A stretch of DNA of 64,000 bases from contig OY987225.1 in assembly GCA_963920705.1 (NCBI GenBank), positions 1,674,001 to 1,738,000 of the forward strand. The letters are read 5' to 3'. Source of the DNA: Odiellus spinosus (lineage: Eukaryota; Arthropoda; Arachnida; Opiliones; Phalangiidae). Of the stretch, positions 2,467-59,770 are shown piece by piece. Both the position numbers and the translations under genes were made by a program. Below the pieces are notes generated by a model. It did no database searches. It was not told the DNA's origin and was given only the letters and a program-made list of their open reading frames with translations. Numbering within the stretch: the first letter of the stretch is position 1; each line of letters opens with the position of its first letter.

Positions 2467-2592
2467 ATGTCTCGATACTTTAAATTTTCAGTACTGATCC
2501 TACTCTTTTTTGACTGGTCAAAATGGTCTAGAAGCCAAGAAATCGTGGCGCCCACGTGCAACATAAACCCACTCGAAGAAATGAATATTGAG
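2467..2592 (+). CDS. Receptor exon 1: signal peptide
   Basis: Codes residues 1-42, starting MSRYFKFSVLILLFFDW, a typical signal peptide with a hydrophobic core at 8-15. It ends at GAG|GTAATT in phase 0, and exon 2 also starts in phase 0. The ATG lies two bases after a TTTTTTTACAG acceptor, so a non-coding first exon probably lies upstream. The 3-kb intron after it contains the Helitron. Confidence 0.75.
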
Positions 2593-5500
2593 GTAATTAA
2601 AGTTTGAACAACTCGATAGAATCACCGGAAGTATATAATTATACAAAAATGAGGTTGCTTCGCACCCTTAAAAAGTGCTCTTTATCTAACTTGAATCAAA
2701 CCCGTGAAGGGACACAAATTAATTGTTAGAGAAAGAGCAATTTAATATCTTTAAAATTATAGTTAGTAGATTTATTCCACTACTCCAAAGATTTTACTAT
2801 CTTATATATAAAAACCACGACGTTCGTTCGTTCGTTCGTCGTTCGTTGGTTCGTTTTTTCGCGGGGGAATTTATTCCGAGCCGTTCCGGCCCCCCACGAG
2901 TTCGCTAATTTTATTGCTCTTGGAGAAACACGCCGTCTACGGAACAAAATTTTATCTGGGTTCGTAGTTCGTTTTAAATTAAAATTAGAATTAATTGAAA
3001 AATTAAATCTTCGATTTGGTATCGTTACAAACGTTTCAGTGTTTCGTTAATTTTCTTCCTGTTAGGCCTCCGCTCAGTTTAAATTATAAAATTTAATCGG
3101 GGTTCGTACCGCTTTTTACTCTTTTTAAATTAAAATTAAAGTTAAAAATTCCAGTTCGATAAAGGCTTCCGTTCGTTAACACGATAATCTGTCGTTTCAG
3201 GAGGATCCCGTTGCGGGATGCCTCGCCTTAACGCCGGCCTCCCATTGGTTGATAATGATTTGTATAGTGTAGGGTATTTTTTTTTTTTTTTTTTCCCACG
3301 GAGGATTGTTAGACGCGGAGTAGTAGTCTTATATATTAAAACCCCGCTTAGCATTACAGGGAGCATTTAAAAATGGAGTGATAATAAATTTTAAACGGAA
3401 CCTTTTAAACTAACGGAAAAAGATGAACATCAAGATGGCGCCTGCAAAAAGATGAGAGTTAGATGGACGCCTGAAAAAAGATGAAAAGCAAGATGGCCGC
3501 CTGAAAAAAAAGATGAAAATTAGGTGTGTTCCCATTTCACCCAAATATTTCGCCCAAAATTATCTATTCCCATTTCGCCCAATTGTTAGGTTAGGTAGGA
3601 TTAGGTTAGATTATTTGAGATTGGGCGAAATGGGAATTGGGTCAAATGTTTTGGGCGAAATGGGGGTAAACCAAAAATTAAGATGGAAGCATGAAAAAAT
3701 ATGAAAAGCAAGATGGCCGCCTTAAAAAAGATGAAAATTAAGATGGAAGCATGAAAAAAGATGAAAAGCAAGATGGAAGCATGAAAAAAGATGAAAAGCA
3801 AGATGGCCGCCTTAAAAAAGATGAAAAGTAAGATGGCCTTAACGCCGGCCTCCCATTGGTTGATAATGATTTGTATAGTGTAGGGTCTTTTTTTTTTTTT
3901 TTCCCACGGAGGATTGTTAGACGCGGAGTAGTAGTCTTATATATTAAAACCCCGCTTAGCATTACAGGGAGCATTTAAAAATGGAGTGGTAATAAATTTT
4001 AAACGGAACCTTTTAAACTAACGGAAAAAGATGAACATCAAGATGGCCGCCTGCAAAAAGATGAGAGTTAGATGGACGCCTGAAAAAAGATGAAACGCAA
4101 GATGGCCGCCTGAAAAAAAAGATGAAAATTAGGTGTGTTCCCATTTCACCCAAATATTTCGCCCAAAATTATCTATTCCCATTTCGCCCAATTGTTAGGT
4201 TAGGTAGGGTTAGGTTAGATTATTTGAGATTGGGCGAAATGGGAATTGGGTCAAATGTTTTGGGCGAAATGGGGGTAAACCAAAAATTAAGATAGAAGCA
4301 TGAAAAAATATGAAAAGCAAGATGGCCGCCTTAAAAAAGATGAAAATTAAGATGGAAGCATGAAAAAAGATGAAAAGCAAGATGGCCGCCTTAAAAAAGA
4401 TGAAAAGTAAGATGGCCGCATGAAAAAAGATGAAAAGTAAGATGACCGCATGAAAAAAGATGAAAAGTAAGATGGCCGCATGAAAAAAGATGAAAAGTAA
4501 GATGGCCGCATGAAAAAAGATGAAAAGTAAGATGGCCGCATGAAAAAAAAGATGAAAAGTAAGATGGCCGCATGAAAAAAGATGCAAAAGTAAGATGGCC
4601 GCATGAAAAAAGATGAAAAGTAAGATGGCCGCATGAAAAAAGATGAAAAGTAAGATGGCCGCATGAAAAAAAAGATGAAAAGTAAGATGGCCGCATGAAA
4701 AGCAAGATGGCCGCCGAAAAAAAGGTGGAAAGGAAGAGGACCGCCCTTAAAAAGATGAAAATAAAAATTAGAATTAAGTGAAAAATTAAATCTTCTTAAA
4801 ATTAGAATTAAGTGAAAAATTAAATCTTCTTAAAATTAGAATTAAGTGAAAAATTAAATCTTCTTAAAATTAGAATTAAGTGAAAAATTAAATCTTCTTA
4901 AAATTAGAATTAAGTGAAAAATTAAATCTTCTTAAAATTAGAATTAAGTGAAAAATTAAATCTTCGATTTGGTATCGTTACATGCTGTTACTAATTATAA
5001 CACTGTTCAATCCTTTTCACCTCTTTTCATATGGCAGGCGCGTGGAAACTCAGATTTTAATACAATTTCATTAGGCCCGAAGCAACTGGATGAAACCCGC
5101 CCGTAGGGCGGGCTTTCAGCTAGTTATTATATATTTTCCAAAAAACGGATAATGACGATCTAGGAAACCTTCCTCTCTTATTGATGTAATTTTTAAATTC
5201 TATCAGTGTCACTAATAAAAACAGCTAAAGATGGAGTTTCTTTAATGTATATATATATTTATCATTAGTAATAGGTCGTCTTTATCCGTTTTTTGGAAAA
5301 TATATAATAATAATAAAATATTTGAAGTAGTAGACTAAATCTACTATAATTTTAAAGATATTAAATTGCTCTTTCTCTAACAATTTATTTGTGTCCCTTA
5401 ACGGGTTTGATTCGAGTTAGATAAAGAGCCCTTTTTAAGGGTGCGAAGCAACCTCTTTTTGGTATAATACTTATACTATTTAATTTCCGTATTAGGGGTT

Positions 5501-8500
5501 ACACGGTGTCTTTCTTCTTTTATCAGTTCTTTAGATATCCTTTTTACACGAATTACGTTTTTAAACACCTAGCATTTGTTTGTCCATGTTGAACTTTCAA
5601 CTTTATTCTTAAAATTATGTATTCTTTCTACAGCCTGATGCTCAATTTAAAATCGGAGTTTTATTGAACGCGCACGAAGCCGGAGATGGATTGTACGGCT
5701 GCGGTCAAGCGTCAGATTCGGGAATTCAGGCGTACGAAGCCCTTCGCGTGGCTATATCAATGGTTAATCGACGTCCTATGAACACCGATCACTTTTCAAT
5801 GGCAAAGGCCTTGAACGGAGTAAAAATTGGTATACATAACGAAATAAACAATCAAAAATTTCCAAAAAAAAATCATTTTTAACGTTATTTTTATAGGATT
5901 GAAAATACTGGACAGTTGCGGACATCTAAGGAAAACGGAGGAGCAAGTTACCAAACTGTATCCATTTCTTAAAGCTATTGGTAGTAGCTCGGAAAAATGC
6001 TTGGAAGAAATTGACAATAAAACCTCATTAGTCCTAGGTATTGATCAAGTACTCGCACTCAGTTATTAATGTGTTGTATGAAAACATGCGCGCCAAACAA
6101 TTGTCGACAATGTTTCCCTCATTGGTGACTACTTTTGGCGTTTATATTAGGTAAACTAACAGCGTTTTTTTGGTAATTATTACCACCTTCAGTTTTAGTC
6201 AATCTCCCTCCCTTTTGCCACTAGCAAATTTTATTTTTTAAACAGAGGTGAGAGTCATTGGGTCCTCACTCGAATTTCGTACAATCAAGAAGGATCAGAT
6301 AAGGAGAGGAAAAGTGGGGCTGCGTTGAGTTAGAGAGAAGAGCCAACCTCTCACTCGGGTGGAAAGGGGGGATAGGAAATTCTCGAAGTAAACTGTTGTC
6401 ACGTGGTCGCTAGCTAGCGCGTCTCATAAAGGATTCGTTTTACCCACGTGACAACAATTTACCACGAAGCATCTCTACCCCCGTCTGTCCCCCGTTCTCC
6501 CAGAGTGGGAGTTTAGGCCGACGCAGTAGGAGCCGCGCCGTTCCCACTTTTCCTCTACTTATCTGATCCTTCTTGGTACAATTAAGAATGAAGAAATTAA
6601 TTGTTTTATCACTATGTGGACCCTATGCTATTTAACATTCACGAAAAACTGGGGAAATGTTCTACACACACTCTATTAAAGATGCCTGTTTTGGACGCGA
6701 TGCATTCGTGTTGGTATGGACTAGAGTGTCATTATCTCACAATACAGCAGAGGAAATTGGAGTGATGTTTTGCGAGGTGATATTTCGCTCACCTATCGTT
6801 AAATCTCGTGTAGCGGTTATGTTTTGCATAATTCAGAGACATTTAATACCCGATTGCTTTTATATGGGAACGAGTCTTATTTCTAATAGTAGAATCGATA
6901 AAAACTACTTGATCTTCCTCTTCATCTTAATTCCCTAACTATGAGGAAATGCGCACCTTTTATGAGACACATATAAAACATATTTCTGCACAATGCACGA
7001 AATTGAAGGGACACGTATGAAAATATATTTTAAAAAAATACAGTTGTATAAAGTATCTAAAAAAAAGTTACTTTCAAAGATCGCCATTATATGGAAGAGC
7101 GCTTTATCGGAAGGCGCTTTCCGATACAGGACTTTTCGTGCTCATTTTACCCCGGTAAAAGTGCCTTCCGATAAAGCGCTCTTTTAACCCTCATATGTAA
7201 CCGTTATCAATACACCATTTAGCCATTACTTGGGGCGCCATAGCGGCATAGGGCGAACTTTCACTTGGTGAAAATGGCAGGGAAAATAACCTGCATGGGT
7301 TAATACGCGGGATACTACGCGCGCCTCACCAAGTGAACGTTTTATTTTTCGCCACTAGTGAGCGTTTCGAGCGCGGGCATGCGCACAGTGGAAGAGCAAA
7401 GTGGTGTATTATTCGAATTGGAAACTAGTTTGGGCACATCCTCAGTACCATGTGGGTTACCCATACCCTAACCCAAAAGTCAAATGATAATTTTTATATT
7501 CAACGAGAATGCGAATAGAACTATAATAATATTTCTCCTTCGAAAGGATCCAAAAGTAAATTTATTTTGACTCAGCAAGAGAGTCATTGTATTTTTCAAT
7601 TATTTTTAAACATTATTATTATTATTACTTTTTTTTTTTAATTTTAGGCGCTATTGATTTGACGGGTGCTACAAACTCTGAGGATTTGAAAAGGGTTTTG
7701 AACGAATCGTCGATTCCAGTTCTGTACGCTCCCTCAGACTATACTTCATCTTTGGCACCCGGTCATGTCGCTCGAGTAGGAAACAATTCTTCCGAAAACA
7801 AAAACAATCGTAAATGATTTATATATTTTTTTAACAGATTTTACTAGAAGTTTCGTACAGCATGGAATGGAACCGTTTCGCTATTATTTACGAAGGGGAT
7901 TTGTTTAGCCGTTCCGTTCTGAAAACTATCGAGGAAATCTCTCTTAAAGGGCATATTTGCGTAACCGTTAAGAAGGAAATACCGAAAAGTACAAAAGATC
8001 CAAAAAGTGCTGAAGAACTGCGTCAAATCGTCAAAAGCGTATCAGCTGGTCTTGCCGATGGCGTTGCTGTTCTAGTTATCGCTCATGGAACTTCCCTTTC
8101 AAATTTACTTAAAGCAATGAGAGACGAACCAGAGGCGACAATTCAAAATCAATGGCTATTTTCTGGAGTGCCTGATGCTTCTGTATTAGCTGCAATGGGC
8201 CGAAACATAAACAATTCTCGGTTATTTTCACTTTCACCTTATCCAGGTTAGTTTTAGGGAAGCTTTTGACGGTAAGAAGAAGCCTTTTTTCTTCAAATTG
8301 CTGAAAGCAATCACAGAGCTAGGCATAGCATATTCTGGGTGGTTGCAAGGGATACACAAAAAAATAATCAAGAAACTAACAATTAAAATTATTTTTCAAC
8401 GAATGATGATAGACACGTGAGGGTATAGAAAATGTAATTATTAAGGTGTTTTCTTTGAAAGAAGACTCGCTATGTCGGAAAGGCCATAATGTAATTGTAA

Positions 8501-11500
8501 AACGATCACAAAGAAAAAAAAACGTAATTTCGATTGCCATTGAAAAATATCTGGCAAATGAATATTTAATACATAAGTCGATGTAACCTCGTGATAAGCC
8601 ATAATGCCAAGTGCTACGAAACCTCAAGGCTCAGCTGTTAGTGACCGTTATGGGTGGCAGTAAGCAATGTTTTTACGACTTCAGCTAATAGCAAATGGAG
8701 TCTTTTACACTCAAATGATTGTAATCCGAATTTGCTCTTGTTAAAAGCATTTAATCATAATTTTTACGATCACAGAGAAATGGGTACAACCAGAGGTATA
8801 TAATAACCCCCTTCTGGGGGAAGTATGAAAGCCCCTATACTACCAATGCTAAAAACCACGAACAACAAGAGCCCGCTGCTGACTATCTAGGCCACTAGCT
8901 AGCGCTGGACTTCTCAATGTCGCTACTCTAGTAAATGGTCTTGGTATAAACAAGACGGCTCGATTTGTGTTTAGAACTTCCTGTCTCAGGAGTCAGGCTG
9001 TCTGTTAAAATGGAGTCGAAGGTTGACTTCAGCTCGCGAGTTCCGGAAGTGCGCGTAGGGAAAATTTAGTGAGGTTCAAAATGGTGTAACTATTTTTTTG
9101 GGAGTAAAGCGGCGTGTCGATCCGCCGCGATTTACGCCGGGCACTCGTTGTTCGTCGATTTTGCCTACCTTTCATACTTCCCCCCGAAGGGGGTTATTAT
9201 ATACCTCTGGTACAACATGAAGTGCTTTCAAAAATATCCTAAAAAATATTTTGAAAATAAACAAAGCCTTCTCAACTAGTCACTATATTTCCATTTATAA
9301 GTCAATAGCAGAAACGAGAGCCGCGTTCATACAAAGCCCAGGCGTCGATTCAAATCGTTGTAAAACCTTTCGTTGCCATTCTGGAACAAGATCGCGAGTA
9401 GACTTCGGTAGATATCCTCTAACAGCAATGAGTATTTTCCGCCTAATTCCTAAATCACATAGTTAATTTCCTAATATATTTGTGTAAACGCGGTATTATT
9501 CGTTTACATTTATAGATATGCCTAGTTGTCACCATTGCGATCTCGATTATAACTGTTACTTTAATTAAACCATAATTAATGTTTGATTTATAACAGGTAT
9601 TAGAGAAGAATTTGAAAGCAGATGGTCTCAAATAGGAACGGACGAATACGCTTTGCCCAAATTTCTATGGCACGCTGAGCTGGCGGCCAAGAAACTTTCT
9701 AATTGTTACAACAACCAGGATAAGACCGCCTGCTTACATAACGGTTCTATCGTACCGGATAACCCGGTGCACGCTCTTCAACGAACGTCCGTATGGTTAA
9801 CCATGATAGATGCCGTGGAAGAATTCGTCACGAGCCTTAGAGAGGCCTGGTACGACGCTTGCGGGGATGGATCGCCTCCCGCGCAACCGGGACCTTGCCC
9901 CAAGTTACTTTCAACCACGAGAAAGATGTTCAAAGATAAATATTTCAAGCCATCGCGGTTCACGAACAGGGAAACTGGTTTGGGATCCGATGCTAAATTG
10001 GCGTTGACTCAGTATCTTTTCGATGAGAGGATAGGCCTTCATTTCAATCAGGTACATCGTTCTTTCCAACGACGTAGTTAAGCAAACAGCAACTTTTGCG
10101 CAATCGTGGTGCCTTTTGAACGTTATTTTAAAATTATAAGTTGGGCAGACTCAAAATTAAGTATATGCGCTCTCATAAGTACTCCGATTAGGCTCTGAAA
10201 AGGTTTAGAGAACAGTTCTCGTACAAGCGTAGATTTACATACCTATGCTTTTGTTGGTAATTACGTTGAAACTACCTAATTTGATAAAGTGAATAAAACG
10301 GATACTTATTTCTAAATTAGACAAAAACTGACCAAATTGAAACTAATCAAAATTAAGCAGAAACGGATGAAATCTGAAATTTTTTCTCAATTGAAAAAGT
10401 ATGAAAATTTATTTTAAAATGGATGAAAATCGATTGGGATTCGCTGGTTAATTTTGACAATGATATCTATTTGGGAATAAGATCGCGAGTAGACCTAGGC
10501 TGAAATCTTCTAACAGCAATGAGTATTTTTCGCCTAAATTCAAAATCACTTAGTTTGAGTGAATTTTCGAATCTAATTGATTAAACGAAATAGTATTCGT
10601 TGATTGAATTTAAAGATGTACCTAGTAGTCACCATTGTGATCGCGATAATAACTGTGGCTTTAATTTATTACACAGAAATTGACTTATGTTTGACTGATT
10701 CAATTCAAAACAATTTTTCCTTTTGATTATTTTTGCACATTTAGAAAGACGTTTTCTTTTAATTTAGAAGTCATTTTTTTATTTGTTCCGTTACAGTCAT
10801 TAGAATGAATTTAACCATTGTTCGATTTTGGTCCATCTTAGAAGAAATTTTTACATTTCTTCCATTTTTGACCGTGGAATTAGAAAGAATTTTTCGGAAA
10901 TAGTGGCGAGAGTTTTTAAATTAGCATTTCTCCCAAATATACAAAGCCATCTAAAACTTCTTTTGAGCACCTAATGGATTTTTACAATTGCATGATTGAT
11001 CTGTTTGTTATTATTCTTCGAGACATTATGTAATTGCTTAAATTGATAGTTAGTATATCTGGCTGTTAATTTTTTTTTACGAAGATCGCGGTCTACGAAG
11101 AAACCGGGTCTGATATCAAAGATTCGAAGTTCCAGTACATGCCTTCGAAATGCGTGACTGATAATTGCGCAATATGTACGAAAACGTAAGAAGTTTTGCA
11201 ATACAAAACCCGAGGCTATATTTAGGGTTGAACGACCTCCAAGGCCATGAACCAGAAACGTGGAAAAAGTGGGGAAATAAAATTGGTGCGACAAAACCCA
11301 ACCTTTTTTTTTCTTATTTGCGACTTCGCTCTCACTAGAACTACGAAACAAAATATCGCGATGAGCGGAATGTAAATTTGCTATTCGATTCAGATTCGAC
11401 CAAAGTCAAATTTGTTAACTAATTCTGCATGAAGGAATCACTGCCCTGTATTTTTATTGGAAAATTTCAAATTTCGCTCTTTAGCTTAGCTATTAAAGGA

Positions 11501-17500: not shown

Positions 17501-20500
17501 CCTTAACGAATTTAGTGAACGCGTTTTGGGCAGCCGAATTTTGACACCACGCTACTATCTTACTGAAATTGCGCTTTCATTTCTTGTTGTATCGCGCGTG
17601 TAAGAAACATTTATTCGTGATAGGGTTGTTCTGCTTTTAACGAGCTTGGAGGAAACGATGTCGATATTTTCCGCTTCTCAACAACTTCAAAAGCGGGGTA
17701 AATTTCAACCGAGCGACTTCTTATTCGTGGGTTTGGATAACGTGGAAGCATTCCAAAAATTTCCCGATCAGGTACTCGGGGGTCTAGTCATCCGAACAAA
17801 AGTCCACACCGAAACGCCCTTCACGCAGTATTTTGCGAGATTATCAATGCAGAATTCTACCAAAAACACGTGGTTTAAGGAGTTTGTTGAACAACAAAAG
17901 GTGCAATGTTCATATTTTCGGTCTAATACCAGAAGCCGATGAAAACCTCCTTTGAAGTCTATTACTCCCGGGTCTTGTCTACCCCTCTCTTTATGGGTTA
18001 GTTTCAAAAAGCGCGAGTCGTACGCCTCCTAACGGTAGATATTTTCGGAGCGGGAGTTCGTCGAACGAATATCTCTAGCAGGCTTAGAGTTAGTCAAAAA
18101 AACGTCGTCGTTTGTGGAGAGAGAGAATTTCCAATTTTGCGTAGACAGGGGGGGTATGAAGTAGGACCCCTCCGATCTCGTAAAATTGTGAATTTTACCC
18201 ATACAGAGAGGAGCGCTGTATGTAACATTAGAGTAGTAGACTTCAAAGGAGGGTTTCATCGGCTTCTGCTAATACTCATTAGCCACCAATGAACGTATGA
18301 AGGGGCTCTTAGCTTTCTACGATGTCAAAGTGGTCTCATATTAAAAACGGTCAAGGAAGTGTTCAATATTGTCTAGTTTTTGAAAGATTTCCATTAAATA
18401 ATGAGTTAAATTTGTTAACAAAGAAGAAAATAGTTAAATTAATTTCTTCGAAATCAAAATCAGAAGAGCGGTCGAAACACTCAATCTCCCTTGAGTGGAC
18501 GGAAACCAAAAATCTCGACTCTCAGGCCAATTATAACTTCGTACGTTTTCAATGGGGCTCTTGATAGACATATTAATAAACATTAACGTATCATAAATCA
18601 CCTTAGGAACTTGGACAGTTATCTTCGATACAGGACGCTGGTCGTCAGGCTGATCCGGTAGTTTCTAACGCCATACAGAGTGTATTATCCGTTGCCACCG
18701 CCGTTTCGTTTCTTTACAAAACCGATTGTAACGGGAAATCTGAAGGCTGCTTAAGGCCCAACACACTCGAGGATAGAGTGGCTATGAGAGAGCGCCTCTT
18801 TAACAAGACCAAGGATGTCGTCTTAGTACGGCCCGATGGTTTGGAAGTCAGTTTCGGAGACAAACGATACATCGATGGTTCTTTGGAAATTCTAAACTTC
18901 CGACAGCTTGGAAGCCATTCCCTCGCTTTCTTGTCCGTAAGTTTAAAATAGATCTAGAAATTTCTGTCTAACTAATACGCGAGAGAATATGGATAAAGAT
19001 TGTATAAGGTGGTTCGTAAATCAGTTTTAAACCGATTGAAAACGGCAAATTAAGAAAAACAGAAAATTAATTTGAATTATTATTTAAGTCTTATATCGCA
19101 TGTTCCTTTTTCCAAAATATTTTTAAAACAATTTAGTTAATAGACTGCGCTATCAAGGATACTACCTGAGGTGTTTATCGCCGATTTTGTCCAAAGTGTG
19201 CTATAATGTATACCTATGTAAGATATGAAAATCCCCAAAAGGAGACGACGCACTACCCATTAGTTTGGCCATGGCAACCGAAAACATTTTTGGCCATTTC
19301 AATCGAAAAAATCTCCATTGAAAAAAGCGTGGGATTTTCTCGGTGAAACCTTGTCAAATTTTCAAATTGGTTTGAAATTGTCAAATGGGTAATGTGGTCA
19401 TATCTAGGTAAAAGTCATCAAGTTTGGGTAAATTGGGACTTTTTTGGGCTAAAATTGGTACCATTTTTGGGAAAAAAAGGGAAAAGAAATTTTATCTTTT
19501 CGACGAAGGTGCTTAATGGCCAAATACATTTTCGGTTGCCATTCGCAAACTAATGGGTAGCGCGTCGTCTCCTTATGGGGATTTTCATCTCGTATATAGG
19601 TCTACATTATGGCAGACTTTGGACAAAATCGGCGATAAGCATCTCGGGTAGTCTCCTTGTAAGGTCAAGGAGTATATTTTTTATATAATTAAATTGCCTT
19701 TCTGAAATTTTTCTTTTGGCTCGAGTCTTCTCACCATTTTAACAATCATTATAAAAAGGGTTGTCGGACCATATCTTTGTCCATTTTGAAAGCATCCAGT
19801 TCATGACACACTTTCTTACTTTGTAGGTTGGCACGTTCAGCGAAACGCGAGGCATACTTCTCAACACTTCGCACGCTCGAGGATATGATTCCAGAGGAAA
19901 CGAATTTTCCCTATCAAATTTCCAATCAAAATGTTCAAGCGCGAAAGATTGTTCTATACAGCCAAATACCGCGTTTCCCAACGTCATGTACATCAACCGA
20001 AATGCCAAATTACTCTTAGGGGCATTAATGACCGTACACAAAGAGGGACCGAATATTTTTACGTGCGGATCCATCAACAATCCCGAAATATTTGAAAATG
20101 TCGTCGCTCTATCTTACGCTATCGAAATTGTCAACAAAAACCAGAGTCTTTTAAGGGATGTGAACTTGGGAGCAGTCATATTCGATTATTGTGATCAAGA
20201 GCAACGGGCAGAGCAACAATTATATTCGTACTTTGCCGAAAAAGCAGCCTTAGAAGCGAATCCGGACGACTCTCAAACCATCGTAACGTTGATGACGTTT
20301 GGTGATTCTATAACGAACAAAGTTTCGCCAATACTCGAAGTTAAGAAGATTCCGGTCATAATTAACCCTGGAGGGCGCGCGCGTACGAAAAGAGCAGTGC
20401 CCGTGGAAAGCGGCTCTGTTCGATCCATGTCCGCCGAAAAAGGTCAGGCTGACGCCATCGTTGAAATGCTAAAGCAATTTGATTGGAGATACGTCTTCGT

Positions 20501-23500
20501 AGTAGACGTTACCAGCGAAAGTTTTTCCGATACAGCCACTCACTTAGTAAAACGGGCTAAAGAACGCGGTATTTGTATCGCCGCGAACCTCAAACTAAAC
20601 CCGATCCTTTCAATTCAAGAAATAGGTCATCGCTTAAAAGAGGCCTTAACGGATCCGCAACCCAGGGTCGTCGTTCTGTTAACGGACGATTCATTTTCGA
20701 CAAAATTAGTACTGAAAGCAGCGAAAGCAACGCACCTCTTATCTAGGTTCGTTTGGATCGGATCGGAAGGTTGGGCTACCGATCGCGAGGCCGCGGACAT
20801 CTTAGACGGTAGTAACGTTGACGCCTTTACCATCGCCATGGAGAGTCCTGTTTTATCAGGCATTGGTAATTACTTCGCTAATTTGACACTAACGAAACAC
20901 GAACCCATTCCGGATTCCTGGTTTGAGGAATATTGGCAGGAAAATTTTCGTTGTAGACTGGTAGACGCGCGATACATCCGAAAACAATACCCTGATATCT
21001 GTACCGGGACTGAGAAATTAACCAAAGGGTCTTTGGTGGAGAAAAGAGTTAAACCAATATTCGACGCGGTTTACGCTGTCGCCAATAGTCTCGATGGTCA
21101 AGTAAGAAAACTGTGCTCGGCATCGATGACTACCAGCTGTTACAGTTCCTTGGATAGTAGTTCGTTAATGTTGGACATCAAGAAACGTTTAACCGGAGCT
21201 CAGTCCGACTACGTTTACAATATTTATCATTTGGGTAACCGATCAGATGGAGTTTATTCGTATGAAAAGGTAAATCAATTTATGAGATACTTAACACGTG
21301 ACTATGTTCGACGAACGCCGCTCTCAGCAGTTCTTTAAAGGCCTAGGATTTCTTCTGCCTGTTTCACTGGACGTGGGCTCACCCGAGCTTTCCCTTGGGT
21401 AGCGTGGCAAGAGAAAGCCTGGAGGGTGAGTTTGTTTCCAGGGTGTCAGGCGGAAGTAACCTATAGTCTTTCAAAACCTTATAAGGCCCCTTAAATATAA
21501 ATACTACACGCGGAAGGGTATTTGCATGCAACAATCTGCGCGTCATACAAACAACTTGATTGTTCCCAACTTTACTTGCTGTAAAGTAGTTGGCCTATTA
21601 TTAAAGCTGGGTCTAAACCACATCCTAGTCGCAGAAGTACATGAAAAATGAAATAGAAATTTTTATTGTTTGAATAAATATAACATGTGTATTCAAGCAC
21701 TTAGCATAGGATGTCCAACTCAAGTGAAATTCACTCCCTAGACCTTTTATTGCGCTATGTTCTTACACCGAGATAATAATATCAAATTATGATTAGATCT
21801 GGGTAATGCGAATTCAATCGCCATATCAGAACAACGCTTCGTTTATTCAAGTATACTTCCCAAGTAGGCGTATGAAAGGCTTATCATTACCGCCATAAAG
21901 AAGAACTTTCTCCGCGTACAGAAGGGGCTATAACCCTTTCCCGAAAAATCGAGACACTATCGCGCAAGGGAGGCTCACCGCGAGCGTCAAGCCATCGCAA
22001 ACCAATTATGAGTACATATGAATACCGAATTTGTATATCTCGCTTATATGTAGGCAGAGAAACGATATATAAACGAAGTTAAACATATATCTGAAGATAT
22101 ATGAAAAGCTACCCTACTTTTTAATCACGGTGGTTCACGAAAAAAGTGCTAATCAATCAATTAAAAACGGATGAAAACAAGAGTATAGTAATTTGCGTAG
22201 AACTGTACTTAGATAATCCAAACCACCTTGAATTTGTAGCAAGCCTAAATTAACAGTACCTATGCTTGAACTTAAGCGCGTGATAACTCAAGCTGGTATT
22301 AAACACTGAAATTTCTCTAAATTCTTAAGGCTGTCTCACACTGGGCAGATTTTCATGTCAGCATCAGTTGTCATGGTGGATTTCCAATTTCACTTCAGCA
22401 ACGAGATATCGCGCATTGCAATGACAAAACCGATGTTGTCATCGGCGTTCCGTTGCTGAAGTGAAAAACCCGTTCTCAAGAGAGTTGAAATCATCAACTT
22501 TTTGAAGCTCATCCCGGTTTCAAGCGTGAACGTCACATCTACGTTTTAGAATCATCCAATAGGAAGGCAGAAAATATGGGGTGGGATTTTAGTGACGAAT
22601 TACTGAGAAATTTGTTATTTTAAAACATGCTTTTTTGGATTCCAACTTCCACGTGGGGATATCACATTTCAGTAATAAGTTTAAATCTAGCTCGATCATC
22701 GATGGCTGAAAATGACATAATGAAGATGATTAGGGAAAATGAAGATGGTTCTGATTTTTTCCAGCTCGATTTTGATGAGCAATTAATAGAAAAAATTAAG
22801 GAAAGGCCATTTTTCATTGACCCTAGTAATTACAGTTCTTTATTTTTGCGTGTTAAATGAAGATAAAACGGGATAAAAAGAAAGGCTAAAAAGTTGGCGA
22901 AACGATATAAAAAATGGCTACCGACTGAACTAAGTTCCCTCCAGGGATGTAAACAAAAATGTGCGCGCGCAGCGGCAGCTGTTGTTCGGAAGCTGGACAG
23001 TGTGGGATACCCGAATTTTCTGAGTTGAGGCTGACTCCAGCTTGAAGGAGAGGTTGACTAGGAAAACGAGTTTCCGAGTTTATCTCAAGCTGAGCCCGAG
23101 CTCAATTCCAAAAAAAAAGGACAGTATGCGGTAGCCTTTAGTCAATTCCTTAAATATCTTGTAAATTATTTATATTGATTTCAACTTTTTTATTAACTAG
23201 ATTGTTTAACCAATTCAGGGTGACCAGGGAAAAAACTTGAAATTTTATATAAAAAATAGGAAATTTAAAGGCGAATTATAGGATTGAAAATTTAAAAATA
23301 TAGGAAAATATACTATAAATAACAGCGAATTTATAGGAAAAAGGACATCTTTTAATACGCCGTTGATTCAACATTTTTACCACATTTATCGCTTTTTGAT
23401 TTCTTTAAAATCTTAATCTCATGTTTTTGACTCGATGCCTTTGGTGGGAATGTTTTATTTTTGAGAAAATTATACTTTTATTTGAAAATGAATAATCTGA

Positions 23501-26500
23501 TAACCGAAAAATGTGAAAAAATAGGAAAATATAGGAGAAAACCTTCAATTATAGGAAGGTATTGAAAAAATTAAAAAAAATATGAAGTCTGGTCACCCTG
23601 TAATTGTACCCTAATTATAATTATACTAGATAGTGGTGCCCGTATTAAAATAATTGTATCATAATTACTTAATATATATTGAAATATTAAATTTAAATTA
23701 ATTATTAATATAGAAGTTAATATTGATACATCTAGATTAAAATAGTTATATTGATAAAAAAATAGGCCCATAGGGAATATCCAACACCCTGCATTTGCCT
23801 GTATTAACTGGAATACGGGAAACAACATGGTCTGCCAACTCCCTATATATTTTTTTAATATCTAAAATTTATCATTTAAAAACTAAAATTTATCATTTAA
23901 AAACTAAAATTTATCATTTAAAAACTAAAATTTATCATTTAAAAACTAAAATTTATCATTTAAAAACTAAAATTTATCATTTAAAAACTAAAATTTATCA
24001 TTTAAAAACTAAAATTCATCATTTAAAAACTAAAATTTATCATTTAAAAACTAAAATTCATCATTTAAAAACTAAAATTCATCATTTAAAAACTAAAATT
24101 CGTCATTTAAAAACTAAAATTCGTCATTTAAAAACTAAAATTCGTCATTTAAAATCTAAAATTCGTCATTTAAAAACTAAAATTCGTCATTTAAAAACTA
24201 AAATTTGTCATTTAAAAACTAAAATTTGTCATTTAAAAACTAAAATTTGTCATTTAAAAACTAAAATTTGTCATTTAAAAACTAAAATTTGTCATTTAAA
24301 AACTAAAATTTATCATTTAAAAACAAAAATTTATCATTTAAAAACAAAAATTTATCATTTTAAATGATAAATTTTAGTTTTTAAAACTAAAATTTATCAT
24401 TTAAAAACAAAAAATTATCATTTTAAAAACTAAAATTTATCATTTAAAAACTAAAATTTATCATTTAAAAACTAAAATTTATCATTTAAAAACTAAAATT
24501 TATCATTTAAAAACTAAAATTTATCATTTAAAAACTATAATTTATCATTTAAAAACTATAATTTATCATTTAAAAACTATAATTATATCATAATTTTGGC
24601 CTTACATAGATGTGTTTAAGTTCCCCAGACCCCCCCCCCCCCCGCGACATTTTAATTCATTTTTAGCAAAAATGCCGTCCTTTTAAATCAACTCGTTGAA
24701 TATTAAGAAGCCCTAAAACGTATCTTGGCCGTTACCATCCGCCTCCCTCGTCACCTACCCCGCGAAACACAAAGTCGTCGTTAAGCCTCGGCGCCCGTAG
24801 ATCGTAGAAGTCAAAGATCGTAATCATCACTTACCCCTAAAAAAAAGTAATTTCTTAAACTCACCGAATTTGGGGGGACCAAAAGAGATTTCATCCTTAA
24901 TTCCAGATAGTTTAGACATCCTTTGCACACGTATTTCAAGGATTATCGATATTTTAAACGCGAATTAAACCGAATTTAATTTTAGTAAAACACCGGCGTA
25001 CCGTTACTGTCAAGGCGCCATATTGCTCTAGACGGGGAAGAAGAGGGTGGCCCGAAGGGGGCGTAATGAGACGGCGTGACTGGAAATAAGCAAAAATAAT
25101 CTTGAGTTGTATTATGGGCGGAAATTTGAAATAATAAAAATAAATAACCATGCAAAACTATGAATAATTAAAACATTTTGAAGTGTTTTAAAGCTAAACT
25201 AAGGTTGAAAATAATTATAATAGTTTTAAAATGTATCCTGACACGCGTTAATTGTTATAAAATGTTTCAAAATTGATAAAAATTAATTGAAAACGAATAT
25301 TAAACAAATAATTAGGGTACCAATGGAGTAATAACACTAATAGCTATAGGAGTAGAAGGTATAAAAAGTTGTAATTTTTAATTTAAATTAATTATAAGCA
25401 AACCCAGGTTATTTTTGTAGTTATAAAGTGAGGCTAATAATAGACACTTTCTCGAGAGACTCTTTGGATTCGAGGCTAGACGCTAAAAGGCTTAACTAAT
25501 AAGCAAAATTATCCTACCAAGGCGACAATCTCTTCCGTTTTTGACTTTATGCCTTTGGTGGGAATTTTTTATTTTTGAGAAATTTTTAATTATACTTTTA
25601 TTTGAAAATGAATAACATGATAACCGAAAAAAGTGAAAAAAATAGAAGAAAACCGTTAATTATAGGAATTTATAGGAAGGCACTGAAAATATAGGAAGTC
25701 TGGTCACCCCACCAATTTAATATTTTTAATTATAATTTAAATGCATATTATGTTTCAATTCACTTAATAATATCACGGCATAATGCTAATGTGCTTTATT
25801 AAAAAAATAGTATATATATAGCGTCCGAGGGGTTCTTTCTAGACTGGCGTTCATCGAACATGTGTCTTATTGAATGGAATAGTTTTGGAACTAGTCACCA
25901 ATTTTGTCTCTCGCGTAATAAATTGGCAAGGGTCGAAAATTCTAGCCGAAAATTTAATTTGTATTTTATTAAACATTTTACATTTTTGTAACCAAACAGG
26001 TCGGCACTTGGAACGAGGGTCAATCGGATGTCAAATTAAACGATGTCAACTTCCCAGGGGGACCTCCGTTGTCTCTATGTATCGGAACTTGTTCTACGTG
26101 CTTGAGTCAATTGTCAAACTCTGACGTGTATATTTCATTCCAAACCCCAAATACTCTTTACGATAATTTGCAAACCGTCTGGGGAATTACTACGACCTCT
26201 TTATCGGTGCTGGGCATCGTGCTCGTCGTCATATGCGGAGTGTATTTTTTAATGGCTTTCCCCTTTACTGTCGGAACGACGGTCCTCGGATACAAAATAC
26301 TTTTTGGTTTGTTTCTTTTGTACGCGGTGAATTTGGCTTTTATCTTATCGCCAACCGAAAGCTCTTGCGGCGTGCGACGATTCGTCATGGGCCTAGCGTA
26401 TTCCGTTATATTCTCGGGTATGCTAATAAAGGTTACGAATACTTGGAGGCTAATGGGTGGCAACGGTAATCGAATGATGAACGACGCCACGCGTATGTCC

Positions 26501-28119
26501 AGTCCGGCTGGACTTCTCGTAGTTTCGGTGGGATTGGTGGTAGTGCAAATAATTCTCACGGCCGCTTGGTTGGTTCTGATACCTCCAAAAACGGGATTCT
26601 ACCGTGGTATGTGGAGGTGCTCTCCACCCAACACGTTCGAGGACGAATTAATCATTTCGCTGGTTTACGTAATGCTGATTCTCGCGGTAACAATATTCTT
26701 TTCCGTGCTAACTTGGAAATGCAGAGAAAACGGGCAAGAGTCTCGATGGATCTTGGCTTGCTGCGTTTTTGTCACGATTGTATGGGTAGCCTGGACCGTT
26801 CTAAGCACTCATCTACCCCTACAGTATAGAGACGTTACCATTGTTATCGCGAATCTACTCTGCGCCACGCTGGTGATGTTGTGTCTCTACATGCGCAAAG
26901 TGTACGTTTACAGTAAACTCACCAGACAGTTGAAGAGCAGGGATCTTAAAGCGCAGTTGAAAGGATCGCTTCCGTATCAACATTCCCTCTATGGAACGTT
27001 GCAGAATAATTTGTCGTCTGTCGCTCCAGTTTTATGTGGTAAGATTTCGCATTTGGTAAATAACCAAATTGATTTGACAAATAATAAACACATTGATCTA
27101 ACTCATCGTGTGATAATTCCATATCGTTTTTGAATTTATAATAATCTTAGAACTGGATTTATTTCCATTTACTATAGTCATGAAACCTTTACGTCTCTAG
27201 TTTGGCCAGACAAAATGGGTAAAAATTAGAATAATTAAATCTCATAATTTAATAATTCTCCAAGTAAGAAAGTGTTGGCAAATATTTGCTCAATGCATTG
27301 TTAAATGTGTGGTTTGGAATGCTCTGCTCCAAAGTTTCCGTTTCACATTCGTAAGACACGCTTACATTTTATTCATTCGTTCACCAGTGCCAAAAACAAA
27401 CAGTGGGCGTATGTTACAAAGAAACAAAATACTACTTTGTAAAGGTTTTTACAAAACTGTCTTCTCCATCAAAACGGAATTCGGTTTTCGATGGAACTAA
27501 AAAGGTACAAAAGCCTAAGTCAAAAATAGTACTCAACACTTCACCAATGAATTTTGAGAGGACCAATGGATTTTTGATGACGTTAGATTAATGGGTCTGA
27601 GGTACTGAGGGGCGAGTTCAATCCGAGTTCTTTGATTAAGATTTAAGGCTGTCACTTGGGTGGTGCAAAGGGGAAAATTTGGTCCTTTAGCGCTTAAAAT
27701 TTAGGACAGCTTTTGTCAGAAATTGAAAATAAGGGCGGGTAGAAAAAATACCACCCATCTCTTGCCCCCCTTTTTGCGAAAGTGGGGACTAACATATAAG
27801 AACGGGTTGAACGGAATTCAGTAAATATTCTTGTTGGAAATAAATCCATTCTTGATAAGTAATTTTTTTCAGTTTTAATAATTTTTTGTGTTCAACGGCA
27901 GGTTCGCAAGCGTCTTTAACGACAAAGCCATTTTACGGAGGAGGATTTGGGCACGTGCAACTAGACGAAGCCCAATCGGAAGGCGGGGCTAGTACCAGTT
28001 CGGGTAGCGTGCAGGTGCAAGGCACCGACTTGTACCCTTTGGAAATGTACGACGGTGGAAGCCACCTTTCTTTGTACGGACCCAAATCCATGCTGGCAGT
28101 TGGAGATGGAACTCAGTAA
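2467..28119 (+). CDS. Class C (mGluR-like) GPCR with four tandem Venus-flytrap modules (15 coding exons)
   Basis: Orphan receptor of the metabotropic-glutamate type at the plasma membrane. Joining 15 exons (listed separately) gives 7050 nt with every splice phase agreeing and one terminal stop: 2349 residues. Order: signal peptide (about 1-24), ligand-binding module 1 (about 46-485), Cys linker, module 2 (about 535-966), linker, module 3 (about 1016-1450), linker, module 4 (about 1506-1931), linker, seven helices (about 1997-2230), tail to 2349. Usual mGluRs have one module and about 900-1100 residues. Each module shows the family pattern of a leucine-rich helix, a segment ending in D(S/T/Y)C, and a K(F/W)xW(A/R/D)(Y/F)VS-type core strand. 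The seven-helix part keeps the CGVRRF motif at helix 3 and the partner Cys in MWRCSPP. The nine-Cys domain of mGluRs is missing. It may belong with large insect orphan class C receptors; orthology is untested. Confidence 0.9.
3228..4450 (+). repeat. Tandem duplication of about 0.61 kb inside the Helitron
   Basis: The block starting TTAACGCCGGCCTCCCATTG at 3228 restarts at 3839. Each copy contains a poly-T run, a second Helitron-like 5' start (TCTTATATATTAAAACC at 3327 and 3935), an inverted ATTTCGCCC…GGGCGAAAT pair, and GATGAAAA-type minisatellite units. The copies are nearly identical, so the duplication is recent relative to other repeats here. Confidence 0.75.
4280..4745 (+). repeat. 30-bp minisatellite in the Helitron
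   Basis: About a dozen units of roughly 30 bp built on GATGGCCGCATGAAAAAA plus GATGAAAAGTAA, with small A-run length changes. Shorter runs of related units occur at 3666-3835. The apparent Phe-rich reverse-strand frames here are products of the repeat, not genes. Confidence 0.85.
4762..4975 (+). repeat. 34-bp minisatellite in the Helitron
   Basis: Six near-perfect 34-bp units (AAAATTAGAATTAAGTGAAA plus AATTAAATCTTCTT). A single unit with the same right flank (CGATTTGGTATCGTTACA) is at 2986-3028, so the array probably grew from a copy of that segment. Confidence 0.85.
5634..5829 (+). CDS. Receptor exon 2: start of ligand-binding module 1
   Basis: Residues 43-107, opening with the first beta strand of a Venus-flytrap domain (FKIGVLLNAHEAG) and the helix AYEALRVAISMVN, equivalent to the mGluR strand and helix before the ligand site. 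Acceptor TTCTACAG, donor G|GTATAC, phase 1. The break before L(K)ILDSC recurs at the same place in module 3. Confidence 0.85.
5897..6037 (+). CDS. Receptor exon 3: module 1
   Basis: Residues 108-154, containing LKILDSCGHLRKTEEQV, the conserved strand plus DSC turn of class C ligand-binding domains. Acceptor TTTATAG, donor G|GTATTG, phase 1 to exon 4. Confidence 0.8.
6286..6575 (+). mobile_element. MITE family A, copy 1 (CAAGAAGGATCAGA ends)
   Basis: A 290-bp near-palindrome flanked by the 7-bp direct repeat GTACAAT (6279-6285 and 6576-6582). Both arms contain CACGTG inside GTTGTCACGTGG (6400-6405 and 6445-6450). It lies in receptor intron 3. Three more copies are at 16654, 33896 and 38249. 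Confidence 0.9.
7095..7183. repeat. 89-bp hairpin in receptor intron 3
   Basis: AGAGCGCTTTATCGGAAGGC and its exact complement GCCTTCCGATAAAGCGCTCT are separated by about 45 bases containing a smaller inverted pair. No target duplication was seen. It may be a tiny foldback element or a structured intronic RNA. Confidence 0.55.
7648..7775 (+). CDS. Receptor exon 4: module 1
   Basis: Residues 155-197 (from AIDLTGATNSEDLKRVL to GHVAR). Preceded by a long pyrimidine tract ending TTTTAG; donor CGA|GTAGGA in phase 0. It matches the region of the family where a serine-rich loop normally contacts the ligand; the loop here reads VLYAPSDYTSS. Confidence 0.8.
7838..8246 (+). CDS. Receptor exon 5: module 1, lobe 2
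   Basis: Residues 198-333. Begins ILLEVSYSMEWNRFAIIYEG, the aromatic-rich strand that opens lobe 2 in this family, followed by a helix and VAVLVIAHGTSLSNLL. Acceptor TTTTTTTAACAG only 62 bases after the previous donor; donor CCAG|GTTAGT, phase 1. Confidence 0.85.
8791..9209 (+). mobile_element. MITE family B, copy 1 (CAGAGGTATATAATAACC ends)
   Basis: A 419-bp element with about 40-bp terminal inverted repeats, each containing a CCCCC/GGGGG mini-hairpin, flanked by 7-bp GTACAAC duplications (8784-8790, 9210-9216). In receptor intron 5. Other copies: 15500 (opposite strand) and 59771. No coding capacity. Confidence 0.9.
9388..9590 (+). repeat. Intronic repeat left of receptor exon 6
   Basis: About 200 bp (AAGATCGCGAGTAGAC … TAACTGTTACTTTAATT) resembling 10482-10690 on the other side of exon 6 in the same orientation. 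The copies differ at many positions. It could be an old local duplication or an unnamed interspersed repeat. Confidence 0.6.
9597..10051 (+). CDS. Receptor exon 6: end of module 1
   Basis: Residues 334-485. IREEFESRWSQIG and a Cys-rich loop (CYNNQDKTACLHNG) match the lobe-2 helix and late Cys loop of class C receptors, then a helix AVEEFVTSLREAWYDAC. Acceptor ATAACAG, donor CAG|GTACAT in phase 0. Confidence 0.85.
10482..10690 (+). repeat. Intronic repeat right of receptor exon 6
   Basis: Partner of 9388-9590 (AAGATCGCGAGTAGAC, AACAGCAATGAGTATTTT, GTCACCATTG are shared). No second copy of exon 6 was found after it. Confidence 0.6.
11085..11185 (+). CDS. Receptor exon 7: Cys linker after module 1
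   Basis: A 101-nt exon giving residues 486-518, starting IAVYEETGSDIKDSKF and ending SKCVTDNCAICTKT. It corresponds to the VGxY/F/W start and Cys-x-Cys-xx-Cys linkers seen after modules 2, 3 and 4. It is the only reading that reconciles phase 0 from exon 6 with the phase 2 needed by exon 8 (AC|G). Donor AAAAC|GTAAGA is strong; acceptor TTTTTACGAAG is weaker. Confidence 0.75.
12597..13938 (+). CDS. Receptor exon 8: entire ligand-binding module 2
   Basis: A single 1342-nt exon for residues 519-966. Shows DLEAALWIIDKINQDSSFLR, LGVQVIDTCSSSSQ, SFVSSLDPASSSVAAALLQP, YVLRVTTNPKTKAKAI and KMKWDFVSLVYG in the order found in mGluRs. The ligand loop reads YVSAQDVTY, unlike the glutamate-type YSATS. 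Ends YVYQK|GTAAGA in phase 0. Module 4 is also a single exon, whereas modules 1 and 3 are split. Confidence 0.92.
14733..15039 (+). CDS. Receptor exon 9: linker 2 and start of module 3
   Basis: Residues 967-1068. Opens VGSYKRQLTNLLPVVGYDY, the VG(x)(Y/F/W) segment that closes a Venus-flytrap domain, then STCLSYCAHCSKK (C-x3-C-x2-C), then module 3 begins with DLYITAVFNIREP and QLEAFIWALHQANRN. Acceptor TTTTTAAAG, donor TTAG|GTGAGT, phase 1. Confidence 0.88.
15500..15917 (-). mobile_element. MITE family B, copy 2
   Basis: A 418-bp copy in reverse orientation to the other two, with perfect 7-bp CTGAAAT duplications (15493-15499, 15918-15924). It ends 41 bases upstream of receptor exon 10. Confidence 0.9.
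15959..16496 (+). CDS. Receptor exon 10: module 3
   Basis: Residues 1069-1247: LQLGAVVIDSCSSRAKTAKD, VDIVQPLLSLSVPLKIPTIS and ALIKNFKWAYVSIVSS follow the family order. A MITE (15500-15917) ends only 41 bases before the exon, so most of the usable 3' intron signal lies between them. Donor GCGAG|GTAAGG, phase 2. Confidence 0.9.
16654..16945 (+). mobile_element. MITE family A, copy 2
   Basis: A 292-bp copy with 7-bp TTGCGGT duplications (16647-16653, 16946-16952). The left E-box CACGTG is intact; the right one has changed to CACGCG. In receptor intron 10. Confidence 0.9.
17624..17900 (+). CDS. Receptor exon 11: module 3, lobe 2
   Basis: Residues 1248-1340: VVLLLTSLEETMSIFSASQQ then DFLFVGLDNVEAFQ, the lobe-2 strand pair of the fold. 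The acceptor ATTCGTGATAG has a poor pyrimidine tract. Donor AAAAG|GTGCAA in phase 0, with a MITE target duplication starting 22 bases later. Confidence 0.82.
17930..18268 (+). mobile_element. MITE family I (CAGAAGCCGATGAAAACC ends)
   Basis: A 339-bp element with about 36-bp inverted ends flanked by 7-bp CTAATAC duplications (17923-17929, 18269-18275). It begins 30 bases after the receptor exon 11 donor. Only one copy in the window. Confidence 0.85.
18607..18936 (+). CDS. Receptor exon 12: end of module 3
   Basis: Residues 1341-1450. PVVSNAIQSVLSVATAVSFL is the late helix of the module, followed by a Cys pair (TDCNGKSEGC) and a closing strand SLEILNFRQLG. Acceptor CACCTTAG, donor TTGTCC|GTAAGT in phase 0. 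Confidence 0.85.
19154..19659. mobile_element. 506-bp foldback element in receptor intron 12
   Basis: Arms of about 130 bp (CAAGGATACTACC…CCGATTTTGTCCAAAG and the complement ending GGGTAGTCTCCTTG). Their inner parts pair GGAGACGACGC with GCGTCGTCTCC and CTAATGGGTAG with CTACCCATTAG. No clear target duplication, so the termini may be slightly off. Confidence 0.65.
19827..21269 (+). CDS. Receptor exon 13: linker 3 and entire module 4
   Basis: A 1443-nt exon for residues 1451-1931. Starts VGTFSETRGILLNTSHARG, linker SKCSSAKDC, then module 4 with VVALSYAIEIVNKNQSLLRD, LGAVIFDYCDQEQ and MLKQFDWRYVFVVDV. At residues 1634-1639 it carries RARTKR before AVPV, a furin-type cleavage consensus placed in the ligand-loop region. 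Ends VYSYEK|GTAAAT in phase 0; a 4.7-kb repeat-filled intron follows. Confidence 0.92.
21339..22328. other. Receptor intron 13, left part: nothing recognised
   Basis: About 1 kb between exon 13 and the MADF-carrying element. No coding exon or repeat family was recognised. A short partly self-complementary stretch lies near 21350-21470. Confidence 0.4.
22329..23010 (+). mobile_element. Decayed DNA transposon fragment carrying MADF sequence
   Basis: GGCTGTCTCACACTGGGCAG at the left and the complement of GTATCCCACACTGTCCAGC at the right match at about 12 of 15 core positions, suggesting terminal inverted repeats. The interior codes part of a MADF domain (next entry). MADF proteins are the usual second gene of PIF/Harbinger elements, so that group is the best guess. 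The element is short and broken. Confidence 0.45.
22702..22945 (+). pseudogene. MADF-domain protein fragment
   Basis: From the ATG at 22702 the frame reads MAENDIMKMIREN then DEQLIEKIKERPFFIDPSNY, the start of a MADF (Myb/SANT-like) DNA-binding domain, and stops at 22860. The second half (RKAKKLAKRYKKWLP) continues in a different frame around 22889-22940, so the domain is interrupted. It is probably a transposon-derived DNA-binding protein remnant in receptor intron 13. Confidence 0.6.
23216..23600 (+). mobile_element. MITE family J (CAGGGTGACCAG ends)
   Basis: A 385-bp AT-rich element with CAGGGTGACCAG and CTGGTCACCCTG termini, as in non-autonomous hAT elements. No matching 8-bp flank is seen, so the flanks may have diverged. 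A truncated second copy is at 25540-25710. Confidence 0.65.
23861..24590 (+). repeat. 21-bp satellite array, about 34 units
   Basis: Unit ACTAAAATTTATCATTTAAAA. Variants occur in contiguous blocks: TTTATC, then TTCATC, TTCGTC, TTTGTC, then TTTATC again; a short inverted unit interrupts at about 24361-24390. Because 21 is a multiple of 3, the array reads as an open frame with a 7-residue repeat, but this is not a protein. Located in receptor intron 13. Confidence 0.95.
25540..25710 (+). mobile_element. MITE family J, truncated copy
   Basis: Shares the right part of the element at 23216-23600 (GGTGGGAATTTTTTATTTTTG … GAAGTCTGGTCACCC) and lacks the left end. Confidence 0.6.
26000..27038 (+). 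CDS. Receptor exon 14: linker 4 and seven-helix domain
   Basis: Residues 1932-2277. VGTWNEGQ and SLCIGTCSTCLSQ form the last linker, then seven hydrophobic helices: about 1997-2017, 2025-2046, 2058-2078, 2101-2125, 2149-2169, 2180-2200 and 2209-2230. The CGVRRFVMGL motif before helix 3 and the Cys in MWRCSPP give the class C extracellular disulfide. The KVY after helix 7 is also typical. Acceptor CCAAACAG, donor TTATGTG|GTAAGA, phase 1. Confidence 0.95.
27902..28119 (+). CDS. Receptor exon 15: cytoplasmic tail and stop
   Basis: Residues 2278-2349, a Gly/Ser-rich tail (SQASLTTKPFYGGGFGHVQL to AVGDGTQ). Acceptor AACGGCAG joins in phase 1 to exon 14. The TAA stop is 28117-28119, but ACTCA|GTAAGA there also looks like a splice donor, so an alternative longer tail is possible. 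AATAAA follows at about 28124, too close to be sure it is the polyA signal. Confidence 0.8.
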
Positions 28120-30144: not shown

Positions 30145-30201
30145 ATGATTCGGCAAATTCATCCCAAGAATGAAAAACCAGTGGCTACAATTTCTAATAT
30201 A

Positions 30202-57729: not shown

Positions 57730-57761
<32 letters not shown>

Positions 57762-59697: not shown

Positions 59698-59770
59698 CTT
59701 TAAAAAAAAAAGTTGTGAGAAAAGTATCAGTATTTGAAGTGTAATGATGTGATAGTTATATACGTTTCTT

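Follow-up and report, generated by a model that had tools for sequence, protein, structure and literature searches.

One gene in the 64-kb window (the whole stretch of DNA analysed, C1:1674001-1738000 of a 443 Mb genome) is predicted to encode a class C G-protein-coupled receptor with four Venus-flytrap (VFT) modules, named M1 to M4, on one chain; as a gene model, this reading is well supported. The gene runs along the forward strand from 2467 to 28119 and has 15 exons (Table 1); the exon chain was rebuilt from the sequence, its 14 introns are all GT-AG, the phases agree, and the joined frame counts 7050 bases and 2349 residues with a single terminal stop. An earlier sequence-only reading had given the same number of phase-agreeing exons and the same frame length, and the independent rebuild equalled both. 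It had also placed four VFT-like modules before a single seven-helix domain (7TM), an order that Pfam bore out for the gene model: in the profile search of the joined protein proposed at that time, four ANF_receptor matches and one 7tm_3 match were found, all above the curated cut-offs. The four-module chain is a predicted one, with exons 8 and 9, 12 and 13, and 13 and 14 connected by splice joins.

Exon chain and module joins

Table 1. Exons of the predicted class C receptor gene, with positions counted from the first base of the window.
Feature	Position	Strand	Content
Exon 1	2467-2592	+	Start codon; N-terminus signal-peptide-like by eye
Exon 2	5634-5829	+	M1 begins
Exon 3	5897-6037	+	M1
Exon 4	7648-7775	+	M1
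Exon 5	7838-8246	+	M1; the open frame 7835-8251 by itself matches ANF_receptor (1.5e-9)
Exon 6	9597-10051	+	Last part of M1; by eye its pattern resembles class C, without a Pfam match when alone
Exon 7	11085-11185	+	Cysteine linker 1 (33 aa), M1 to M2; weakest link of the model
Exon 8	12597-13938	+	Entire VFT of M2 in a single exon
Exon 9	14733-15039	+	Tail stub of M2 (linker 2), then the first part of M3
Exon 10	15959-16496	+	M3
Exon 11	17624-17900	+	M3
Exon 12	18607-18936	+	End of M3
Exon 13	19827-21269	+	Tail stub of M3 (linker 3), then M4
Exon 14	26000-27038	+	Tail stub of M4 (linker 4), then the complete seven-helix domain
Exon 15	27902-28119	+	Cytoplasmic tail, stop codon

Regarding the construction of the model, 14 exons were found directly by following splice sites and reading frames from one exon to the next, and exon 7 was located by a gap search. 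With a codon table trained on exons 8, 13 and 14, the exon's own frame beats the other two in 15 of 15 cases; exons 1, 3, 5, 9, 10 and 11 have scores of -0.03 to 0.10 bits per codon, below 0.13, the value under which 95% of 116 open stretches of intron fall, and the codon scores are best taken as support for the frames, not as proof of each exon. The hydropathy scan detected seven stretches past residue 1998 (the third at 1.46 only) and five more inside the modules (1.41-1.84); the N-terminus, read by eye as a signal peptide, gave no signal in this plain scan. A longer version of exon 11, which would keep an mGluR-like cysteine, was dropped because by eye it had no donor in the right phase. 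Two introns hold tandem repeats: in intron 1, a 34-base unit is repeated 5.9 times at 4764-4965 with 100% matches, and in intron 13, a 21-base unit has 35 copies at 23854-24591 with 94% matches.

As for the joins between modules, each module ends with a stub that has three cysteines after M1, three after M2, two after M3, and three after M4; the stubs of M2, M3 and M4 begin with VGSY, VGTF or VGTW, and that of M1 has another form. Since exons 9, 13 and 14 open with the tail stub of the preceding module, followed by M3, all of M4 and the 7TM, respectively, these three domains each follow a VFT in the chain. This preceding VFT would be the neighbouring module, as suggested by splicing, which is in phase 0 each time.

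The connection of M1 to M2 hinges on exon 7. To bridge exons 6 and 8, an exon with phase 0 in and phase 2 out was needed, and 40 open candidates were compared; the peptide of 11085-11185 was at the top, with a score of 100 against the M2-M4 linkers, and the next distinct candidate, with 74, was set aside with the others. The null consisted of overlapping blocks from the other introns of the same gene, on either strand: none of 200 reached 100, and the highest scored 82. The acceptor of exon 7 is of the less common AAG form.

The modules, their pockets and the seven-helix domain

All four modules exceed the curated cut-off of ANF_receptor (PF01094), with 2.9e-12 for M1, 6.6e-31 for M2, 6.2e-19 for M3 and 3.9e-28 for M4; the match of M1 spans profile positions 15-210 of 353 only, and its second half, by reading of exon 6, also appears VFT-like. 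The closest solved structures are mGluR3 for M2 (1.9e-40; 142 bits across most of the fold), mGluR2 for M3 (3.6e-15), mGluR7 for M4 (9.1e-37) and mGluR2 for the 7TM (1.6e-22), and herein lies the likeness with the mGluRs (classes I-III, class IV or insect mXR, DmX); the best solved relative of M1 is mGluR8, a weak match (2.7e-4). Pairwise identity among the modules is 18.6-25.7%, which points to old modules and not to a recent duplication in the assembly. For M4, AlphaFold run with just one further row, M2, gave a poor model (pLDDT 40.5), too weak for a fold search.

Four of the contact sites for the amino acid in mGluRs, Thr174, Asp194, Tyr222 and Asp301, were followed in an alignment of the modules to mGluR3 and mGluR7. 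From M1 to M4, the column of Thr174 holds Ser, Ala, Val and Gly; that of Asp194, a gap, Pro, Asp and Glu; that of Asp301, Gly, Gly, Asp and Glu; and that of Tyr222, which is uncertain, Phe, Asn, Arg and Ser, with a shift by one position giving Phe in M2 and M4. The five-residue contact set (Ser, Thr, Asp, Tyr, Asp), whose Ser column is not reliably aligned, is complete in none of the four modules; M3 has both Asp, and M4 has Glu at both positions. The two arginines at the glutamate side chain in mGluR3 are absent from the modules, M3 having Lys at both places, and mGluR7 is also without them. The first interpretation of the gene holds in part: one class C receptor with four VFTs is well supported as a gene model. 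As to its suggestions that the receptor may bind several ligands or use the extra modules as spacers, the usual amino-acid contacts, incomplete in all modules, argue against four glutamate sites and do not indicate which ligand, if any, is bound.

What is said here of the binding residues comes from aligning the modules with mGluR3 and mGluR7. Motif patterns were a weak control, since the paralogue pieces are incomplete and some of the patterns were too strict or too permissive; out of five, C6a, C13, C5 and C6c (the paralogue pieces) had 3, 4, 3 and 4, and M1 to M4 had 0, 2, 1 and 0. The Tyr matches of C13 are loose and this piece stops before the last Asp, the Thr match of C6c is loose, and the matches of M2 and M3 fall, by eye, at unrelated places. 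The dimer-linking loop cysteine of mGluRs has no aligned counterpart in M1-M4, with M1 having a cysteine nearby; its absence fits a changed dimer and, as regards the earlier suggestion that classical dimer signalling might not be needed, is no evidence for a monomer.

The 7TM matches 7tm_3 (PF00003) with 1.5e-33 and 116.9 bits, against a cut-off of 33.5. This domain and three paralogues from the same genome have in common the helix 3 lysine, both the glutamate and the tryptophan in helix 6, and the two cysteines that pair helix 3 with loop 2, so that the core seems functional. Differences from the paralogues lie in the PKxY motif and in the loop that precedes helix 6, and coupling may be changed for this reason. 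AlphaFold applied to exon 14 alone returned seven long helices with a weak pLDDT of 55.0, again insufficient for searching by fold. Viral contigs scanned with exon 14 yielded one 93-base stretch in L019, with an E value of 4e-4 that refers to the candidates only, and this was taken as chance.

The nine-cysteine domain, NCD3G (PF07562), was not found by Pfam in exon 14, and a three-cysteine stub sits where it would be, between M4 and the 7TM; exon 14 is intron-free between the last part of M4 and helix 1, which leaves no room there for a hidden exon with the domain. The same profile is present in three of the four paralogue stretches scanned (L009:1980-3239, L010:3489-3827 and L015:5572-6000) and was not found in L010:7176-8195, which carries just the end of that region. 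With the nine-cysteine domain cut to a stub of two to three cysteines, and with no module having the full amino-acid contact set, the receptor is, as judged from its sequence, an mGluR-derived class C receptor, but it is not an mGluR.

Genome census, origin of the modules and known relatives

The genome search with 7tm_3 gave 23 matches, grouped into 13 loci, one of which (C1:19156560) is under the curated cut-off; in nine of the 13, exons matching ANF_receptor lie within 200 kb upstream and on the strand of the 7tm_3 match. The census scores the best candidates only, exon by exon, and exons can be missed; in it, the window gene covers the ANF_receptor profile up to four times and is the sole locus with repeated coverage, while the eight other VFT-bearing loci cover it once at most, bar edges of up to 11 positions, three of them by one short piece only. 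Compared with the genome, the 7TM exon matches its own locus and, after that, five places with identities of 23-29%, the next best having 25%; as the other matches in the assembly are only distant, the gene is taken to be single copy. By exon evidence, at least five more mGluR-like loci with one VFT occur among L009-L018; Drosophila has two mGluR-type genes, fewer than these further loci.

As for the origin of the modules, introns 8, 12 and 13 are in phase 0 and lie directly before VG[ST][YFW] at the ends of M2, M3 and M4, and in the paralogues L010, L015 and L016 the open frames continue through that place (L009 was left unresolved). An intron place shared by M2-M4 and absent in three paralogues favours duplication of the module as a unit inside the gene; M1 ends at a phase-0 intron about ten columns earlier. 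M2, M3 and M4 probably arose by such duplication within the gene, with the tree leaving M4 open. The closest pair is M2 and M3 (104.6 bits), which also group in the VFT tree with 93/96, a grouping flagged as long branches meeting, and no branch meets both support thresholds. This tree has 10 rows, among them C6c and C13, which fill less than half of the columns, and C5, C6a and C6c, which are trimmed exon pieces; a single origin of the four modules needs three changes, 21% of the bootstrap trees have one, and the tree neither shows nor rules out such an origin for M1-M4.

Class C receptors are generally known for one VFT per chain and for dimer-driven activation. GABA-B receptors have one VFT per chain, joined to the 7TM without a nine-cysteine domain; the receptor described here shares the lack of this domain with them, but its 7TM is mGluR-like and its modules are four. 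In turn, mGluRs have one VFT, the nine-cysteine domain and the contact set, whereas this chain has four VFTs, is without the domain, and has no full set.

Within the accessible part of the open-licence literature, no class C GPCR was found whose chain carries several VFTs, though automatic annotations of proteins like this may exist in databases; the papers found there on tandem or additional VFTs dealt with bacterial proteins, and tandem VFTs are known from bacterial sensor kinases. BvgS and EvgS have two tandem VFT modules per chain, which dimerise (PMC5573083); the tandem arrangement is alike, but these proteins are histidine kinases and not GPCRs. The Venus kinase receptors of invertebrates have a class C-like VFT, and differ by having one VFT, a single transmembrane helix and a tyrosine kinase (PMC3703292, PMC4026697). 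Among the mGluR relatives, the insect mXR group is said to retain the contacts to the amino-acid moiety (PMC9138782), and Arg78 and Lys409 are named as changed in the class IV mGluRs (PMC6307864). Finally, Drosophila CG32447, an orphan class C receptor, could be guessed as a candidate orthologue: its entry in a table carries MGR_DROME and 32.3, taken to be the best relative and the per cent identity (PMC1192796), and it is listed as a class C GPCR among the single-wall-sensilla genes of the antenna (PMC6829134).

Working explanation and its alternatives

The favoured explanation, considered fairly probable, is that this single-copy arthropod gene encodes an orphan class C GPCR from an mGluR-like ancestor, in which four VFTs, each with its cysteine stub, precede the 7TM; M4 would drive the 7TM through a short linker in response to a non-glutamate ligand, and M1-M3 would be extra modules. 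The domain order, the loss of the cysteine-rich relay, the loss of the usual pocket and the intact-looking 7TM core are the parts of this explanation that the sequence itself shows. Its driving role being suggested by place alone, M4 would act without a cysteine-rich domain, somewhat like the GABA-B receptors, and its ligand would not be glutamate in the usual pose; M1-M3 might serve in sensing or partner binding and set or modulate M4 (sensing, docking, reach). A four-module chain would allow asking which module drives the 7TM, whether modules in one chain can stand in for the dimer partner, and by what route a signal passes when the cysteine-rich relay is missing; if conserved in arthropods and without a vertebrate counterpart, it would count as an orphan receptor distinctive of the phylum. 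A bolder version, in which VFTs paired within one polypeptide (for instance M1 with M2, and M3 with M4) replace the dimer partner, and a lone chain both combines the input of several ligands and signals by itself, is quite unlikely.

The strongest rival is a stalk or adhesion array, in which M1-M3 bind nothing and either hold M4 off the membrane or dock another protein; it is possible, if doubtful. The incomplete amino-acid contacts in all four modules, the cysteine stubs that repeat as in a stalk, and the greater divergence of M1 agree with it, but M2 still aligns with mGluR3 at 142 bits across the greater part of the fold, M3 retains both acidic contact positions, and a pure spacer would hardly need complete two-lobed folds. 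It is also conceivable, though unlikely, that the locus yields receptors with one to four modules through alternative splicing or promoters, the four-module form being one of several; M2 and M4 are each within one large exon, and exon 13 (1443 bases, phase 0 on both sides) is skippable in frame, whereas the frame would shift if exon 8 (1342 bases) or exon 9 (307 bases) were left out singly.

The module joins are predicted from DNA, and the one between M1 and M2 hangs on a single small exon; M1, moreover, is the least similar module and has another intron place at its end, as would be expected if M1 (the others less likely) were a secreted VFT protein and the receptor had three modules or fewer. 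Such separate products are improbable, more so than the alternative forms above: exon 7 resembles the linkers of M2-M4 in pattern and its phases suit both neighbours, unmatched in score by the other candidates or the null blocks, exon 8 starts in phase 2 with no ATG between the preceding stop and the exon, and the stubs in exons 9, 13 and 14 require a VFT ahead of M3, M4 and the 7TM. A decaying pseudogene, which could account for the missing cysteine-rich domain and the lost binding residues, is scarcely credible, with 2349 codons free of stops and frameshifts, 14 intact splice pairs, and the key columns of the seven-helix domain retained.

Regarding the neighbourhood of the gene, the frame 30133-31230 (+) has 365 aa, a hydrophobic stretch near its start, long Pro/Ala/Asp repeats (PAPDPAPD...) and a Pfam match far under the cut-off, and is perhaps a secreted repeat protein. 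Two arfaptin-like exons (PF06456) are on the reverse strand within 52751-59769, with 4.5e-34 at 59353-59769 and 2.4e-15 at 52751-53050. Pieces of retroelements were detected at 50266-51498 (+), with reverse transcriptase (1.3e-7) and RNase H (3.9e-13), perhaps of the non-LTR type, and at 56842-57129 (+), with an RNase H-like piece (RT_RNaseH, 4.5e-16), perhaps of the LTR type. TTAGG is the telomere repeat in most arthropods; across this genome, a 30-base TTAGG array has 7014 forward and 2583 reverse matches (overlapping), and its reversed pattern has none. In the window, tandem repeats with TTAGG in their units are at 43723-44053, resembling the telomere repeat of this genome and lying about 1.7 Mb from the contig start.
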